From the IMG/VR virus record IMGVR_UViG_3300032050_000004, positions 62,001 through 126,000 of that record: a stretch of 64,000 nucleotides of DNA; one strand, given 5' to 3'. Positions 5,396 through 46,360 of the stretch are shown in pieces (positions within the stretch are counted from its first letter, which is position 1; each line of letters opens with the position of its first letter). Under the pieces are notes generated by a model. It saw only the letters and a program-made list of their open reading frames with translations, was not told the DNA's origin and did no database searches. The translations under genes and the position numbers were made by a program. Source of the stretch: a virus.

Positions 5396-6535
5396 TTAAT
5401 TTGATAATTCGCCTTTAATAGTTTGGTGACATATGTAATTTTCAATAATAAAATCTTCTATTTTCAAAGAATTAATAAATTGATCAAAATTGTTTTCTTT
5501 TTGAGTGAAGCCTATCCAATCATTATCTTTAATTTTTAAATTGCACAATTCATATGGTTGTCTTGTAATTTGTTCTTTAGCTTGATCAATATGATTTAAA
5601 TATAAATGAGTATCACCAAGATTGGCTATAAGTTTTTTTGGAACCATATCAAAAACTTGAGCTAAAATATTTAACAACAAACCATATGATGCCAAATTAA
5701 ATGGAAGGCCCAAGAAAGTATCTACTGATCTTTGATTCCAAAGCAAAGAAATTTCCCTTGATTTAACATTTGTATACTCATCTAGATAAATATGTTTTTC
5801 TTCATCACTTTTTTTATTGAACTCTTCTAAAACCTGTTCTTCTATTGTTGATGATTTATTCCAAATATTTATTCTTTTTTTTAAATCAATTTTTTGAGTA
5901 TATATTTGAAAGGAATAATGACATGGTGGTAGAACCATATTTTGAATATCTGATATATTCCAAGAATTGACAATCATTCTCCTGTCATCAGGATTATCTT
6001 CTAATTGAGTAAATATTTTTTTTATCTGATCTATTTCAAACTCCTGATAAATTTCAGTGACAGATCCTTGTTCGTTTATCTTTAATAATTTTTCAATTGA
6101 AGTCCATCTTCTCCATTGTTTACCATACACTGGTCCCAAATCTCCAAATTCATTTAAAAAATTTTGATTATTTTTTAATCTGTTTACAAATTCTTCTTTT
6201 GTCAATTTTATATCTACTTCATCCTTAACAAAAGGAACTTTATTATCAAATATTTTACAATAATTTTTATACAAATCACCATTCCATATGTTGCAATTAT
6301 TATCGATTAAAAACTTTACATTAGTATTTCCTCTTAAAAACCAAAGAAGCTCAGTAACTACTCCCTTAAAAAACATTTTTTTGGTTGTTAAAAGAGGAAA
6401 ACCTTCTGACATATCATGGATTAATTGTTTTCCAAAAACTGAAATTGTTCCAGTACCGGTTCTATCCATTTTAATAGTACCGTCATTTAAAATTTCACTT
6501 AAAAGATTTTGATAATTTTTATCTAAACTATTCAT
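5396..6535 (-). CDS. thyA: Thymidylate synthase (folate-dependent)
   Basis: 379 residues, longer than the usual 264-300. It methylates dUMP to dTMP using methylene-tetrahydrofolate. Visible motifs: the N-terminal DRTGTGT Arg, LLWFLRGNTN, GDLGPVYGKQWR, phosphate-binding DDRR, catalytic Cys205 in VLPPCHYSFQ, QRSVDTFLGLPFN and GDTHLYLNH. Extra length comes from two insertions, about residues 92-128 and 216-256, both Lys/Glu/Asn-rich. It overlaps the downstream end of the 6528-7640 gene by eight bases. A paralogue lacking the catalytic residues lies at 8145-9146. Confidence 0.95.
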   Translation of the reverse strand: MNSLDKNYQNLLSEILNDGTIKMDRTGTGTISVFGKQLIHDMSEGFPLLTTKKMFFKGVVTELLWFLRGNTNVKFLIDNNCNIWNGDLYKNYCKIFDNKVPFVKDEVDIKLTKEEFVNRLKNNQNFLNEFGDLGPVYGKQWRRWTSIEKLLKINEQGSVTEIYQEFEIDQIKKIFTQLEDNPDDRRMIVNSWNISDIQNMVLPPCHYSFQIYTQKIDLKKRINIWNKSSTIEEQVLEEFNKKSDEEKHIYLDEYTNVKSREISLLWNQRSVDTFLGLPFNLASYGLLLNILAQVFDMVPKKLIANLGDTHLYLNHIDQAKEQITRQPYELCNLKIKDNDWIGFTQKENNFDQFINSLKIEDFIIENYICHQTIKGELSN

Positions 6536-17947: not shown

Positions 17948-18046
17948 TGGTGTCAGGAGGTGGAATTGAACCGTGACTTTCGTCACTCCGTAAGGACCCG
18001 ACTCATGGTTTTTCACGCCATTGCTCTACCTCTGAGCTATCCTGAC
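17948..18046 (-). tRNA. tRNA-Phe (GAA) with a 23-base insertion in the T-stem
   Basis: Read on the minus strand: acceptor GTCAGGA pairs with TCCTGAC, discriminator A, encoded CCA (17950-17948), D-arm TAGCTC ... GAGC. The anticodon arm is ATGGC-GTGAAAA-ACCAT, giving anticodon GAA with U33 and A37. The T-loop is TTCAATT with 3-prime stem strand CCACC. The 5-prime T-stem strand is broken: GGT, then 23 bases (17973-17995) holding the hairpin GTGAC-GAAA-GTCAC, then GG. Removing the 23 bases restores a perfect GGTGG/CCACC stem and a normal length. One C-A mismatch closes the anticodon loop. A decayed or unusual long-variable-arm tRNA is the alternative. Confidence 0.75.
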
Positions 18047-18122
18047 ATTTATGAATAATTACAATGCAAATATAATAAAATTAAAACTTAAAAAACAAGT
18101 TATATCAAAAAAAACTTCAAAC

Positions 18123-41118: not shown

Positions 41119-41796
41119 ATGAACACACTAAATTTACAAACAGACATTCAGAAATATAATTTCGCATCTAATCAATATTTAGCTGAAGAACATCCTAAAA
41201 AACAAATATATATTCACCACACTGCTGGTAATTCAAATGGTATAAACGTTTTTAAAGATTGGGAATCTAATCCAGAAAAAATTGCAACTTGTGTTACAAT
41301 TTGTGGAAAAGCTAAAAACAATGAATTTAAAGATGGACAGATAGTTCAGGGTTTTAGTTCAAAGCATTGGGCTTATCATTTGGGTTTAAAAGAATCCACA
41401 TTTCAAAATTTCAACTTACCATATAAATCATTAGATAAAATATCTATTGGTATTGAAGTTTGTAATTGGGGACAATTAACTTTTAAAAATGGTAAATATT
41501 ATACTTATGTAAATACAACTGTACCTGCAACTGAAGTGGTAGAACTTGAAACTCCCCATAGAGGTTTTAAATTTTATCATGCTTACACTGATGCTCAGAT
41601 AATATCAATAGAAAAATTAATAAGATATTGGGGCGGTCTATATTCAATTCCTATTAGTTATAATTCTGATATTTGGGATGTAAATAAAAGAGCCCTAAAT
41701 GGAGATGCTGGTGTATTTACACACAATAGTGTTAGATATGACAAGGTAGATGTGTCGCCTCAACCTAAATTAATTCAAATGCTGAAAACTTTATGA
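41119..41796 (+). CDS. N-acetylmuramoyl-L-alanine amidase endolysin
   Basis: 225 residues, amidase_2 type. YIHHTAGNSNG gives the first zinc His, then GFSSKHWAYHLGL, ISIGIEVCNWG, and a late FTHNSVRYDKVDVSP with the second zinc His and the Lys/Asp site. It cleaves the amide bond between muramic acid and L-Ala. It overlaps the secreted nuclease gene by four bases (ATGA). Confidence 0.88.
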   Translation: MNTLNLQTDIQKYNFASNQYLAEEHPKKQIYIHHTAGNSNGINVFKDWESNPEKIATCVTICGKAKNNEFKDGQIVQGFSSKHWAYHLGLKESTFQNFNLPYKSLDKISIGIEVCNWGQLTFKNGKYYTYVNTTVPATEVVELETPHRGFKFYHAYTDAQIISIEKLIRYWGGLYSIPISYNSDIWDVNKRALNGDAGVFTHNSVRYDKVDVSPQPKLIQMLKTL

Positions 41797-42398
41797 AAAA
41801 ATTATATATTTTTTTTGCAACTCTTTTATTTGTTTTTTTTTCTACACTTACCTCTTATTCACAAAAAAATTCTATAAGAATAGTTAAAGAAAACTATACT
41901 TGTTATTTTGACACTGTTTTAAAACAGCCATTAGTTGTAGTTTATAAACTATATAAAGGTGGAGGAGATTGTTCAAGAGCAGGTTTTAGTTTTAAAAATG
42001 ATCTATCAAACGTAAAAACAGCAACTCAGGCAGATTATGCCAGATCTGGTTATGACAGAGGACATTTAGCTAATGCGGAGGATTTTGCTTATGACTGTAA
42101 ATTGGATGAATTAACTTTTAGATATTACAACTGTCTTCCTCAATCTAAAATATTGAATAGGGGACTTTGGAAACAAAAGGAAGAAGAATCAAGAAAACTT
42201 AGTCAGTTAGATACTATTACAGTTGTTTGTTTTGGTCGTGAATTTTTCAGAGACGAAAGACTGAATGTACCAAAATATTGCGGTAAAATAGTCAAGGAAA
42301 AAAATGGTAAAATTCATTTTTGGTTATTTGATCAAAATGGAACTTTATTACCTGAGAATAAAAATATTCTAAAAGAATATTCTATATACTTGAATTGA
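41793..42398 (+). CDS. Secreted DNA/RNA non-specific endonuclease
   Basis: 201 residues. Signal peptide at residues 1-24 (MKKLYIF, hydrophobic core, ending SYSQ). The beta-beta-alpha metal motif is Asp88-Arg-Gly-His91 in YDRGHLANAEDF, and the metal-binding Asn region is NCLPQSKILNRGLW. This is the NucA/EndA-type fold, degrading DNA and RNA. Four Cys may form disulfides. Co-translated with the amidase, so it is made at lysis and sent to the periplasm. It could digest host nucleic acid released at lysis or DNA entering from rivals. Confidence 0.88.
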   Translation: MKKLYIFFATLLFVFFSTLTSYSQKNSIRIVKENYTCYFDTVLKQPLVVVYKLYKGGGDCSRAGFSFKNDLSNVKTATQADYARSGYDRGHLANAEDFAYDCKLDELTFRYYNCLPQSKILNRGLWKQKEEESRKLSQLDTITVVCFGREFFRDERLNVPKYCGKIVKEKNGKIHFWLFDQNGTLLPENKNILKEYSIYLN

Positions 42399-42449: not shown

Positions 42450-43091
42450 ATGGAATCAGTGCCTTATTTTGAAGAATCAAATAATGAATTCTTTATTAGA
42501 ACATTCAAAAAGTATACACCTTCAGGGGAATTTAAATGGCATTTTGACGACGAGAATAGAAAAATTATTCCTATTTCTGGACATAATTGGAAAATTCAAA
42601 TTGATGAGTCTTTACCTGAAGAATTGATTATTGGGAAAGAATATTTCATACCTGTAGACGTTTATCACAGAATAATAAAAGGTGATGGAGATCTAGAATT
42701 AAAACTATTTAAACTGGATAGTAAAAAAGGAGATCAGCCTAAATATGTAAGAAAATACAATGATAATCCGAAAATTTCAGATTATCTTATGTATCATTTA
42801 CAAAATGAAATACCCTTGAATGAAAATGTTTTTAGATATGCATCTGAAGCTTGGTGCGATTTAATTCAGGAAGCGAAAAGTCTTTATGAAGAAGGAATTT
42901 TAGATTTTTCTGAAGAGGAACTTGAAATCATAAATGAGGATACTGGTAAGATAAAAATTGTTGATGGCGAAAGGTTTATTTTGAATACACCTTTTATCAA
43001 TACAAATAAAGATATTGATAAAAAATATTTTGTTTATATTTGTGAAGACAACAATAAAATAGAAAAAATTTATTTTGATGATGGAGAATAA
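42450..43091 (+). CDS. Cupin-like conserved phage protein
   Basis: 213 residues. Residues 10-85 (FIRTFKKYTPSGEFKWHFDD, ISGHNWKIQIDESLPEELII, YFIPVDVYHRIIKG) follow a cupin-like beta pattern seen in small phage proteins (W-H ... YHR-x-I-K-G), possibly metal binding. The C-terminal half is acidic and helical. Function unknown. Confidence 0.65.
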   Translation: MESVPYFEESNNEFFIRTFKKYTPSGEFKWHFDDENRKIIPISGHNWKIQIDESLPEELIIGKEYFIPVDVYHRIIKGDGDLELKLFKLDSKKGDQPKYVRKYNDNPKISDYLMYHLQNEIPLNENVFRYASEAWCDLIQEAKSLYEEGILDFSEEELEIINEDTGKIKIVDGERFILNTPFINTNKDIDKKYFVYICEDNNKIEKIYFDDGE

Positions 43092-43596
43092 GAAAAATAT
43101 TTATCTAAGTTTAATATTGATATTCGTTTGCATATCAAGAATAATTCCACACCCTTATAATTTTAGTCCTGTAGGTAGTATTTTTTTGATCGCTCCTCTA
43201 TTTTTTAGCAATAAAAAATGGTCTTTAGCGATTTCTTTCATACCGCTTATTATAAGTGATTTTTTGATTGGAAAAATAATTTATAAAAGCGACAGTTTTC
43301 TTTATAGTGGATTTATGTGGGTATATCTCTCATATTTCATGATATGGAGTTATTCCATATTCTCAAATCAAAACATAATTACTAAGAGCATTGTAGGATC
43401 ATTAATATTCTTTTTTATTACAAATGCTTCTTGCTGGATTAACAGTACTTTTTATCCTCAAAATATTTTCGGTTTGACTGAAAGTTTGATAGCCGGAATT
43501 CCTTTTTACTGGAACACACTCCTAGGATTTATTTTTTATTCAGGAATTATAATTATAGGTCAAAAATCACTGAATAAATATGTGTTGAGTAATTAA
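43078..43596 (+). CDS. DUF6580-type membrane protein (ECF transporter S-component-like)
   Basis: 172 residues from ATG 43078; another ATG follows directly, and a TTG lies one codon before. Five or six hydrophobic segments. Family-like landmarks: RIIPHPYNFSPVG, a conserved SD in PLIISDFLIG, TNASCWINSTFYP, and GLTESLIAGIPFYWNTLLG. DUF6580 proteins are common in Bacteroidetes and resemble substrate-binding subunits of vitamin transporters. A vitamin B12 role would fit the phage B12-dependent RNR but is only inference. Confidence 0.7.
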   Translation: MMENKKNIYLSLILIFVCISRIIPHPYNFSPVGSIFLIAPLFFSNKKWSLAISFIPLIISDFLIGKIIYKSDSFLYSGFMWVYLSYFMIWSYSIFSNQNIITKSIVGSLIFFFITNASCWINSTFYPQNIFGLTESLIAGIPFYWNTLLGFIFYSGIIIIGQKSLNKYVLSN

Positions 43597-44126: not shown

Positions 44127-44175
44127 TGGAATTTTTAATTATTATTTTTTTGTAAAAATAATAAAAAAATATAAA

Positions 44176-44210
44176 AAAGAAAACCCCGAATCTTTTTGGA
44201 AACGGGGTTC
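44176..44210 (-). terminator. Terminator of the giant RNA locus
   Basis: Minus strand GAACCCCG ... CGGGGTT stem followed by TTTTCTTTTTT; ends the non-coding transcript just before the HD-hydrolase gene. Confidence 0.85.
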
Positions 44211-45104
44211 TAATTTTTTAATAAAATGGCTGAGATTATACCATTTTGCGGTAGCCTTTGAGAGTATTATCCTTTTCGAGGTTCCCTCTTTTATCCACGG
44301 ACCTTTCGATCAACGTAGCCACCAGTCTCAGTCTTTAGACTCCTTTCGGAATCTTGACCAACATTCTCGTCAGAGCTGTTCTGCAACCTAGTAACACCAG
44401 ATAGGATGGCCGTCCCACCACGATGCTTTGAGTCACAAAGTGAAACAGATCTTGCGAACCTGCCTCACACTCAGTTATCATTGCTGACCTGAGCCTTAGA
44501 GACCTTTTGCTCTTGACGCTGGGAGTCTTGGGCTGTGATTTAAATTTTCATATTTAAATGACATGATCCACGAATTTATGAAAGATGTGCTCCCAGAGTA
44601 GATCCGTTCCTTTTGAGAACGAAATACTACACACCTTTCTGTCAGCTTTGCGGTGCCAACGGCCAGATGAAACCAACTCCCACAACTCAACTCGTGTTAC
44701 CGAGTAAAATTATAAGTCTTAGCCAACCTTGCTGGTTAAAGCACTTCCCCTTCGCATGAGGTCGTACTTTATGAGTTTCATACATTTCTGCATTACGCCC
44801 AACCCTGTCATTTCTATCAGTCGGTTGCCCAACCAATCCGTTTAACAGGAAAAACCCTGAGATGTTTCTATTGTACCTCTCGATACTCAACCACACATTC
44901 GTTTATGTGATACAGCCTACTGACCTGCCCGGTTTTTCAACTGCGAACTCTCATTGTTTGGATGTCCTCCCTAACTTTAGGAAGGCGGAACTTGCGGATG
45001 GGTTTTACCCCAAAGGATCATGTGCAAGTATCCTTTTATACTCCGTCACCGGAGTTTATCTTATGGATGCCAAACCACCCAATTTCTTAATCAAAGAACG
45101 ATTT
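44211..45104 (-). ncRNA. Giant structured RNA, unit B (downstream copy)
   Basis: About 0.9 kb with markedly higher GC than the flanks, short ORFs in all frames only, and many local inverted repeats (for example ACTCCGG-TGA-CGGAGT at 45030s-45050s). It begins with boxA-like CGTTCTTTGA (45091-45100) then AAGAAATT-GGGTG. Blocks shared with unit A in the same order: GATAAAC-x-CCGG (to 45029), AGAGCAAAAGGTCTCTAA (44496-44513), GCAGAACAGCTCTGACGA (44367-44384), ACTGAGACTG (44322-44331) and ATGGT-x-TAATCTCA-x-CC (44228-44244). Size and setting resemble phage GOLLD/ROOL-class RNAs, but family membership is untested. Confidence 0.75.
45091..45100 (-). promoter_or_regulatory. boxA-like antitermination element, unit B
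   Basis: CGTTCTTTGA on the minus strand, identical to elements at 46054 and 46301 and like bacterial rRNA boxA (NusB/S10 site). Confidence 0.55.
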
Positions 45105-46076
45105 TGCCGACTACAACCAGATTCGGACTGATTGCTACCATCACAAAAACCATAGCATATGATTTATTGTGTTGTGCCCACTACACCATGAGTCGAGGTT
45201 TGATAGGTTGAGATTACACCATCTCGTGAGGAACTTTAGAAGACCGTATGGAATTTCACCTTAATCTTCGTATCCACGATTGCTCGTATCCCTCAGTCTC
45301 AGTTGATTTCGTTCTGTAAGTTTGACCCAACAGAATTTAGTCAACCAGTCTTTTATCGTCAGAGCTGTTCTGCCTTGTAAACCACTATTGTATCCCTAAG
45401 AATATAACTGTGGAAATTCTTAATTTTAGAACAAGACAAAGAATGTACCTTTGCACATTCTCTCAGATTGGCATAATCAGTTACCCGACTTGCCTCTGAG
45501 AATTAGAGACCTTTTGCTCTTAACGCCATTCAGAATTTATACAACTCCCCATTTTAAGGTTTTTCAGCTTATTGATTCGCAGAGTTGCAATCATGAATTT
45601 ATATCAGATGTACTGATGGTGATGGTTCAACTAAGAATGCCACACATCTGATTTGACGGAGACGATCAAGAATCCGACTGTTACATAAGATACGAATAAG
45701 AAAATCCTAAACGACCTTACACAACTGGAATGAAACATGATCCTGATTAGAGACCTAATTTCAACCGAAGATATTTCAACCTTCAGCAATCGTCATGATG
45801 AGCAGACGATTTTCCTAGAAGTTCAACTATTGTCATTTCTGACTCAACCGATAGTTCACCCTGTTCGGTATATTAAAATTATAGTTACCCATAACTTCAA
45901 TATGTTGCTTCTTTGCTTAGCTGTCTTGTTTTCACAAGCGAGTACCGTCTTTTTGATCTCCGGTATCTCTTTTATTCCCGTTGCCGGGGTTTATCTGTCA
46001 CAGATCATGTTGCCATGCCTGAAGAGTCTAAGCACCCTTTAATTTCTTATAGTTCAAAGAACGATTTCCTTTTGAT
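45105..46076 (-). ncRNA. Giant structured RNA, unit A (upstream copy)
   Basis: About 0.97 kb, no convincing coding capacity. Starts after promoter 46085-46114 with boxA-like CGTTCTTTGA (46054-46063) and AAGAAATTAAAGGGTG. Shared blocks with unit B in the same order: GATAAACCCCGG (45964-45995 region), AGAGCAAAAGGTCTCTAA (45503-45520), GCAGAACAGCTCTGACGA (45356-45373), ACTGAGACTG (45290s-45304), and ATGGTGTAATCTCAACC (45206-45222). Between the blocks the two copies differ strongly, as expected for an RNA conserved in structure. About 100 bases separate its last block from the boxA of unit B. Both units probably come from one transcript. Confidence 0.75.
46054..46063 (-). promoter_or_regulatory. 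boxA-like antitermination element, unit A
   Basis: CGTTCTTTGA on the minus strand, about 22 bases after the -7 element of the promoter at 46085-46114. Confidence 0.6.
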
Positions 46077-46084
46077 TGGGACTG

Positions 46085-46114
46085 CAAATATAAATCACTT
46101 TTTTATAATTGCAA
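46085..46114 (-). promoter_or_regulatory. Host-type promoter P3 of the RNA locus
   Basis: Minus strand TTG (46112-46114), exactly 19 bases, TATATTTG (46085-46092) then CAG; the boxA follows. Very good match to the Bacteroidetes consensus. Confidence 0.75.
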
Positions 46115-46172: not shown

Positions 46173-46202
46173 CAAATGTAGAAACTATTTTTCAAATTCC
46201 AA
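46173..46202 (-). promoter_or_regulatory. Host-type promoter P2 of the RNA locus
   Basis: Minus strand TTG (46200-46202), exactly 19 bases, TACATTTG (46173-46180) then CATC. Confidence 0.7.
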
Positions 46203-46300: not shown

Positions 46301-46310
46301 TCAAAGAACG
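46301..46310 (-). promoter_or_regulatory. boxA-like element after P1
   Basis: CGTTCTTTGA within a stem GTTGATT ... AATCAAC, directly downstream of P1; third copy of the element. Confidence 0.55.
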
Positions 46311-46328
46311 ATTACTAAATCAACACTG

Positions 46329-46360
46329 CAAATATATATATCTTATATGATTCAATCCAA
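46329..46360 (-). promoter_or_regulatory. Host-type promoter P1 of the RNA locus
   Basis: Minus strand TTG (46358-46360), 21 bases, TATATTTG (46329-46336) then CAG. Tandem promoters P1-P3 resemble an rRNA operon leader. Confidence 0.6.

Follow-up and report, generated by a model that had tools for sequence, protein, structure and literature searches.

Large cages built solely of RNA are known for few natural RNAs, GOLLD being one of them; GOLLD env-38 is a 14-mer RNA cage by cryo-EM, in which L20–J13/15 is a known inter-subunit contact, bridge B7 (Kretsch et al. 2025, PMC12286853). ROOL, another giant phage RNA of comparable size, also assembles into a cage (PMC12286853), and the ~800-nt non-coding RNA of phage ICP1, a single-copy RNA without tRNAs, is the most abundant phage transcript and adjoins the lysis cluster (PMC7567579). 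A literature search found neither a description of tandem GOLLD copies nor a paper linking boxA to GOLLD. The locus described here has two diverged GOLLD copies arranged head to tail in a layout resembling an rRNA operon.

The window, that is, the whole stretch of 64,000 nucleotides that was analyzed, derives from a 222-kb IMG/VR virus record, and a DNA similarity search of 50,697 annotated phage records found nothing similar. The host is probably a member of Bacteroidota, as judged from the promoter type, the boxA type, and protein similarity to Bacteroides phages. A GC-rich stretch extends on the minus strand from about 46360 to 44173, with a GC content of 0.38–0.45 versus ~0.26–0.30 in the surroundings; the ORFs within it are short and dispersed, and none is credible, in agreement with an earlier note on this DNA. 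That note had set the bounds at 46076 and 44176. The latter end holds, coinciding with a terminator at 44173–44207, whereas the start has to be moved upstream to near 46360, because three promoter-like sites and one more boxA, the third, were found there. Two further contigs contain the region, one (L125, also G003) from the same phage with 100% identity over 4.1 kb, and the other (L124, hereafter G002) from a different phage and another sample with 82.5% identity over 2.5 kb; the region is therefore not an assembly artefact. Every element of the locus is conserved in G002, including the three promoter-like sites, the three boxA, both units, the spacer, and the terminator. The features, in minus-strand order, are as follows.

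46329–46360, minus strand: promoter-like site P1, TTG-N21-TATATTTG, Bacteroidota type, with the TATATTTGCAGTGTTGATTT core conserved in G002
46301–46310, minus strand: boxA 1 (leader), CGTTCTTTGA, conserved in G002
46173–46202, minus strand: promoter-like site P2, TTG-N19-TACATTTG, conserved in G002
46085–46114, minus strand: promoter-like site P3, TTG-N19-TATATTTG, conserved in G002
46054–46063, minus strand: boxA 2, at the 5' boundary of unit 1, conserved in G002
45205–46063, minus strand: GOLLD unit 1 (putative 5' end), 5' domain 45653–46053 and 3' domain 45205–45652
45106–45197, minus strand: putative tRNA-like spacer element, degenerate, 92 nt here and 73 nt in G002
45091–45100, minus strand: boxA 3, at the 5' boundary of unit 2, conserved in G002
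44227–45100, minus strand: GOLLD unit 2 (putative 5' end), 5' domain 44640–45090 and 3' domain 44227–44639
44173–44207, minus strand: terminator of the rho-independent type downstream of unit 2, CCCCG/CGGGG stem with a U-rich run behind it, conserved in G002

Both units, each of ~0.87 kb and in head-to-tail order along the minus strand, are GOLLD homologues. The Rfam GOLLD model RF02032 is matched over its full length (model 1–416) by the 3' domain of unit 2 (44227–44639; 176.7 bits, E 2e-49) and by that of unit 1 (45205–45652; 86.5 bits, E 1.9e-22). Unit 2 reaches the Rfam gathering cut-off of 150 bits also in G002 (178.2 bits), whereas unit 1 stays below it in the window and in G002 (69.2 bits, E 3e-17), and is therefore regarded as a diverged homologue and not as a certified member of the family. 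The model covers the 3' domains only, so that both 5' domains lie outside it. Among all Rfam families searched at E up to 1, the region matches nothing besides GOLLD; of the two families suggested in the earlier note, GOLLD thus applies to both units, while ROOL is rejected together with all others. Aligned to each other by blastn, the units show collinear blocks (best E 1e-7), which confirms the shared, like-ordered blocks described for the two minus-strand units in the earlier note.

With the window sequence as the sole input, secondary structures were predicted, and the base pairs changed in G002 were then scored there. Of 77 changed pairs in unit 1, 54 still pair (23 broken), 20 of them through a double change, compared with 28 of 83 (55 broken) in an antisense control; the corresponding values for unit 2 are 32 of 40 (8 broken) and, for antisense, 15 of 45 (30 broken). 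In the two flanking genes combined, used as a further control, only 54 of 168 changed pairs are kept (114 broken), a difference significant by Fisher test for unit 1 (p = 4e-8) and unit 2 (p = 6e-8), and also for the 5' domains taken alone (p = 2e-4 and 2e-9, respectively). Each unit thus has a long structured 5' domain upstream of its 3' domain, with helices preserved by compensatory change on the minus (sense) strand only, which, with the homology of both units to GOLLD, bears out the proposal of two tandem giant structured RNAs. Codon-phase substitutions between the window and G002 are fairly even (52/51/57 in unit 1 and 26/18/34 in unit 2), whereas the neighboring genes have a strong third-position bias (28/16/143 and 33/26/74). 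A coding function, which conserved reading frames would have indicated, is ruled out by this evenness and by indels that are not in triplets.

Adjacent GOLLD copies are rare. Pattern scans of IMG/VR gave ~140 GOLLD loci, and whole-record searches of 139 scan-derived records and ten helicase or HD-protein relatives found GOLLD in ~135, among which only the phage of the window (including its second contig) and G002 have adjacent copies; as the records may be incomplete, each phage could have more copies than were counted. When IMG/VR was scanned directly for the tandem arrangement (a GOLLD 3' end followed 80–110 nt later by boxA), again only L124 and L125 were returned, besides four chance hits (L318–L321); the pattern hits L123 and L126 are also chance matches, located inside genes. 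G106, a more distant relative (helicase identity, 53%), has a single GOLLD within a tRNA array. In the 424-kb virus contig G119, a GOLLD of 199.9 bits (167864–168218) and a weak second match of 40.2 bits (215867–216331) are 48 kb apart and thus not in tandem. Three of the GOLLD phage contigs (L010, L114, and L007) also carry a tmRNA gene within ~2–3 kb.

The ten-base boxA, CGTTCTTTGA, occurs exactly three times in the 64 kb, always on the minus strand and at the GOLLD locus, with the leader copy 240 bases upstream of unit 1. In 116 leaders of Bacteroidota 16S rRNA, GTTCTTTGA is the commonest 9-mer (43 leaders; reverse strand, 0; ~110 bases upstream), and 29 of the 33 readable 16S–23S spacers of Bacteroidota contain a tRNA and boxA (GTTCWTTGA), the boxA following the last tRNA in 28. 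These leaders and spacers identify the phage element as the boxA of host rRNA, and show that tRNA, boxA, and large RNA follow one another as in rRNA operons. The separate boxA elements described in the earlier note therefore match those of Bacteroidota rRNA operons, and the host-type boxA is found in both the leader and the spacer of the GOLLD locus. Clustering of GOLLD RNAs at 80% identity gave 33 clusters besides that of the window, which are not fully independent lineages. In 9 of these 33, boxA is located at the 5' boundary (mean 0.19 and maximum 2 in 1000 shuffles), and every member of the positive clusters has it. Loci L010, L011, L059, and L118 are examples. The boundary forms are mostly GTTCTTTGA, and elsewhere GCTCTTTAA or GTTCTTTAA, with the clusters L059 and L118 having GCTCTTTAA, the boxA form of E. 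coli rRNA. Because boxA of the tested forms is absent from the boundary in the remaining 24 of the 33 clusters, it is not essential to the GOLLD family. Its occurrence in a fair share of the family connects the production of GOLLD to the host machinery making rRNA, predicts a dependence on Nus factors, and would account for the escape of a long untranslated phage RNA from Rho.

The promoter-like sites were identified with the Bacteroidota form TTG-N19/21-TANATTTG; the –7 element TATATTTGC, the same as that of P1, is one of the most frequent k-mers in front of Bacteroidota 16S, and no promoter of this type was found between the units. A similar site at 18067–18098 accompanies a probable tRNA-Ser at 17951–18046 (minus strand), a tRNA whose variable arm is long and which is recognized by Rfam and not by ARAGORN. 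The spacer element between the units, whose fold is based on two sequences, would consist of an acceptor-like stem that closes on an arm bearing a T-loop-like loop of seven bases, TCCGAAT (TTCGAAT in G002), and its 3' end is five bases before boxA 3. ARAGORN and Rfam both call no tRNA in the spacer, and a genuine tRNA is accordingly rejected. In two other loci (L011 and L062), an intact tRNA-Met is followed by boxA and then by GOLLD, so that the degenerate element is plausibly derived from an intact tRNA. Longer GOLLD RNAs (such as L025, L027, L096, and L184) commonly contain a tRNA within the GOLLD linker (~–420 to –305 from the 3' end), an arrangement known in kind. No rRNA-style flanking processing stem was significant in both phages, and such stems around the units were rejected as inconsistent between the two. 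The terminator was not listed by the consensus scan, as its loop exceeds the limit of that scan.

It is likely that these elements constitute a two-gene non-coding operon of the rRNA kind, in which one boxA-protected precursor is cut into two paralogous GOLLD RNAs. In this model, the region would be transcribed from the minus strand, the three tandem promoters giving a single ~2-kb transcript of a large Bacteroidota phage. Host Nus factors loaded on boxA would protect RNA polymerase against Rho and internal hairpins, as happens on rRNA operons. The precursor would then be cut at the intergenic tRNA-like element, probably by RNase P and RNase Z, to yield two ~0.87-kb RNAs in equal number, both of which would fold as GOLLD. 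Such a layout suggests how these viruses produce GOLLD RNAs in bulk.

With regard to the origin of the pair, duplication and separate acquisition are both possible, and the latter, in which the units came from two GOLLD lineages with no duplication in this phage, would be compatible with the rRNA-like operon. The distance between the units (1.4 changes per site) is as large as that to other GOLLD RNAs, the tree of the 3' domains joins them at a support of only 57/9, and their 5' domains have only short blocks in common. However, each unit placed alone joins the same larger clade, and L024 is the nearest row to unit 1 and the second nearest to unit 2. We regard separate acquisition as a serious possibility, though one that we tend not to favor.

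Cage formation by the two units may be carried over from the GOLLD family, and they differ in the known contact sites, the placement of which (L20, J13/15, and L21) on the Rfam model positions is inferred from the numbering of the published structure. The core bases of L20 and J13/15, read by eye from ten alignments (the context string of L007 contained an error and was not found by script), are complementary in 10 of 10 GOLLD lineages with four base combinations (permutation p = 9e-5). In unit 2, the complementarity is GC/GC in both the window and G002, and the L21a loop (bridge B8), ACGGCCAT, is self-complementary with the palindrome GGCC and identical in G002, while the second L21 hairpin is absent. 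L20 of unit 1 carries UGC, but its J13/15 partner is not confidently alignable and differs in G002; the L21-region loop is UUAG in the window, self-pairing only with G–U, and the non-palindromic CUCC in G002. Thus, unit 1 does not clearly keep the two known cage-contact signatures that unit 2 keeps. The 3' domains are 82% (unit 1) and 94% (unit 2) identical between the window and G002, and unit 1 evolves about three times faster (path, 0.18 versus 0.057). From these differences in contact loops and evolution rate, unit 2 is predicted to be the canonical form that should self-assemble into the normal GOLLD cage, and unit 1 a faster-evolving paralogue with altered contact loops and an altered role.

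Alternatively, both units may be subunits of one hetero-oligomeric RNA cage, supplied in equal number by one precursor. They point in one direction, seem to share a transcript, and occur together in each of the two phages; since L20 of both units carries GC, that of unit 1 could kiss the J13/15 site of unit 2, and the L21-region loop is altered in unit 1 where unit 2 keeps GGCC. The threefold faster evolution of unit 1 does not suggest tight co-evolution, and we consider a mixed cage unlikely. The combined proposal, that an rRNA-like boxA-protected operon provides two paralogues that co-assemble into a hetero-oligomeric RNA-only particle with a division of labor between the subunits, is judged still less probable. 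Two diverged GOLLD RNAs that occur naturally side by side, and whose control appears to be shared, make homo- versus hetero-assembly testable. A reading in which unit 2 is the only functional copy, and unit 1 a redundant duplicate in decay, would agree with the lower model score, the faster evolution, and the contact loops not clearly kept in unit 1, but is already disfavored by the covariation, namely the double compensatory changes and the kept-to-broken ratios far above those of the coding and antisense controls; the boxA and promoters of unit 1 are also conserved in G002, and such a decay seems very improbable. Equally doubtful is that GTTCTTTGA is a structural motif of the GOLLD 5' end rather than a Nus-binding boxA, as its position at the 5' boundary might suggest, given its absence from most GOLLD clusters, its presence in the leader, its match to host rRNA boxA, and the GCTCTTTAA of other lineages.

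Endolysin, amidase, and nuclease genes are located at ~2–4 kb from the GOLLD locus; a DNA/RNA non-specific endonuclease (41793–42398, plus strand) and a DUF6580 protein (43075–43596, plus strand) adjoin the lysis genes and the locus. Elsewhere in the window, a thymidylate synthase of 379 residues (5396–6535, minus strand) seems to contain an insertion when compared with the phage family profile. The locus can be likened to the ICP1 RNA by its GOLLD/ROOL-like size and the proximity of lysis genes; the ICP1 RNA, however, is a single copy without tRNAs, whereas two copies with a tRNA-like spacer are present here. ROOL differs in that neither unit matches it. The resemblance to the Bacteroidota rrn operon lies in the type of promoter element, the leader boxA, two large structured RNAs, a tRNA followed by boxA in the spacer, and a single terminator, but is an analogy of layout only, with GOLLD in place of rRNA and a degenerate tRNA. 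In comparison with GOLLD itself, both units have the conserved 3' domain and a separate, diverged 5' domain, in a phage genome and in association with a tRNA-like element, with L20–J13/15 and the palindromic L21 retained in unit 2. Unlike in the described GOLLD RNAs, one L21 hairpin is missing from unit 2, the score of unit 1 falls under the Rfam cut-off, and two diverged copies stand head to tail in a layout of promoter, boxA, tRNA-like element, boxA, and terminator.
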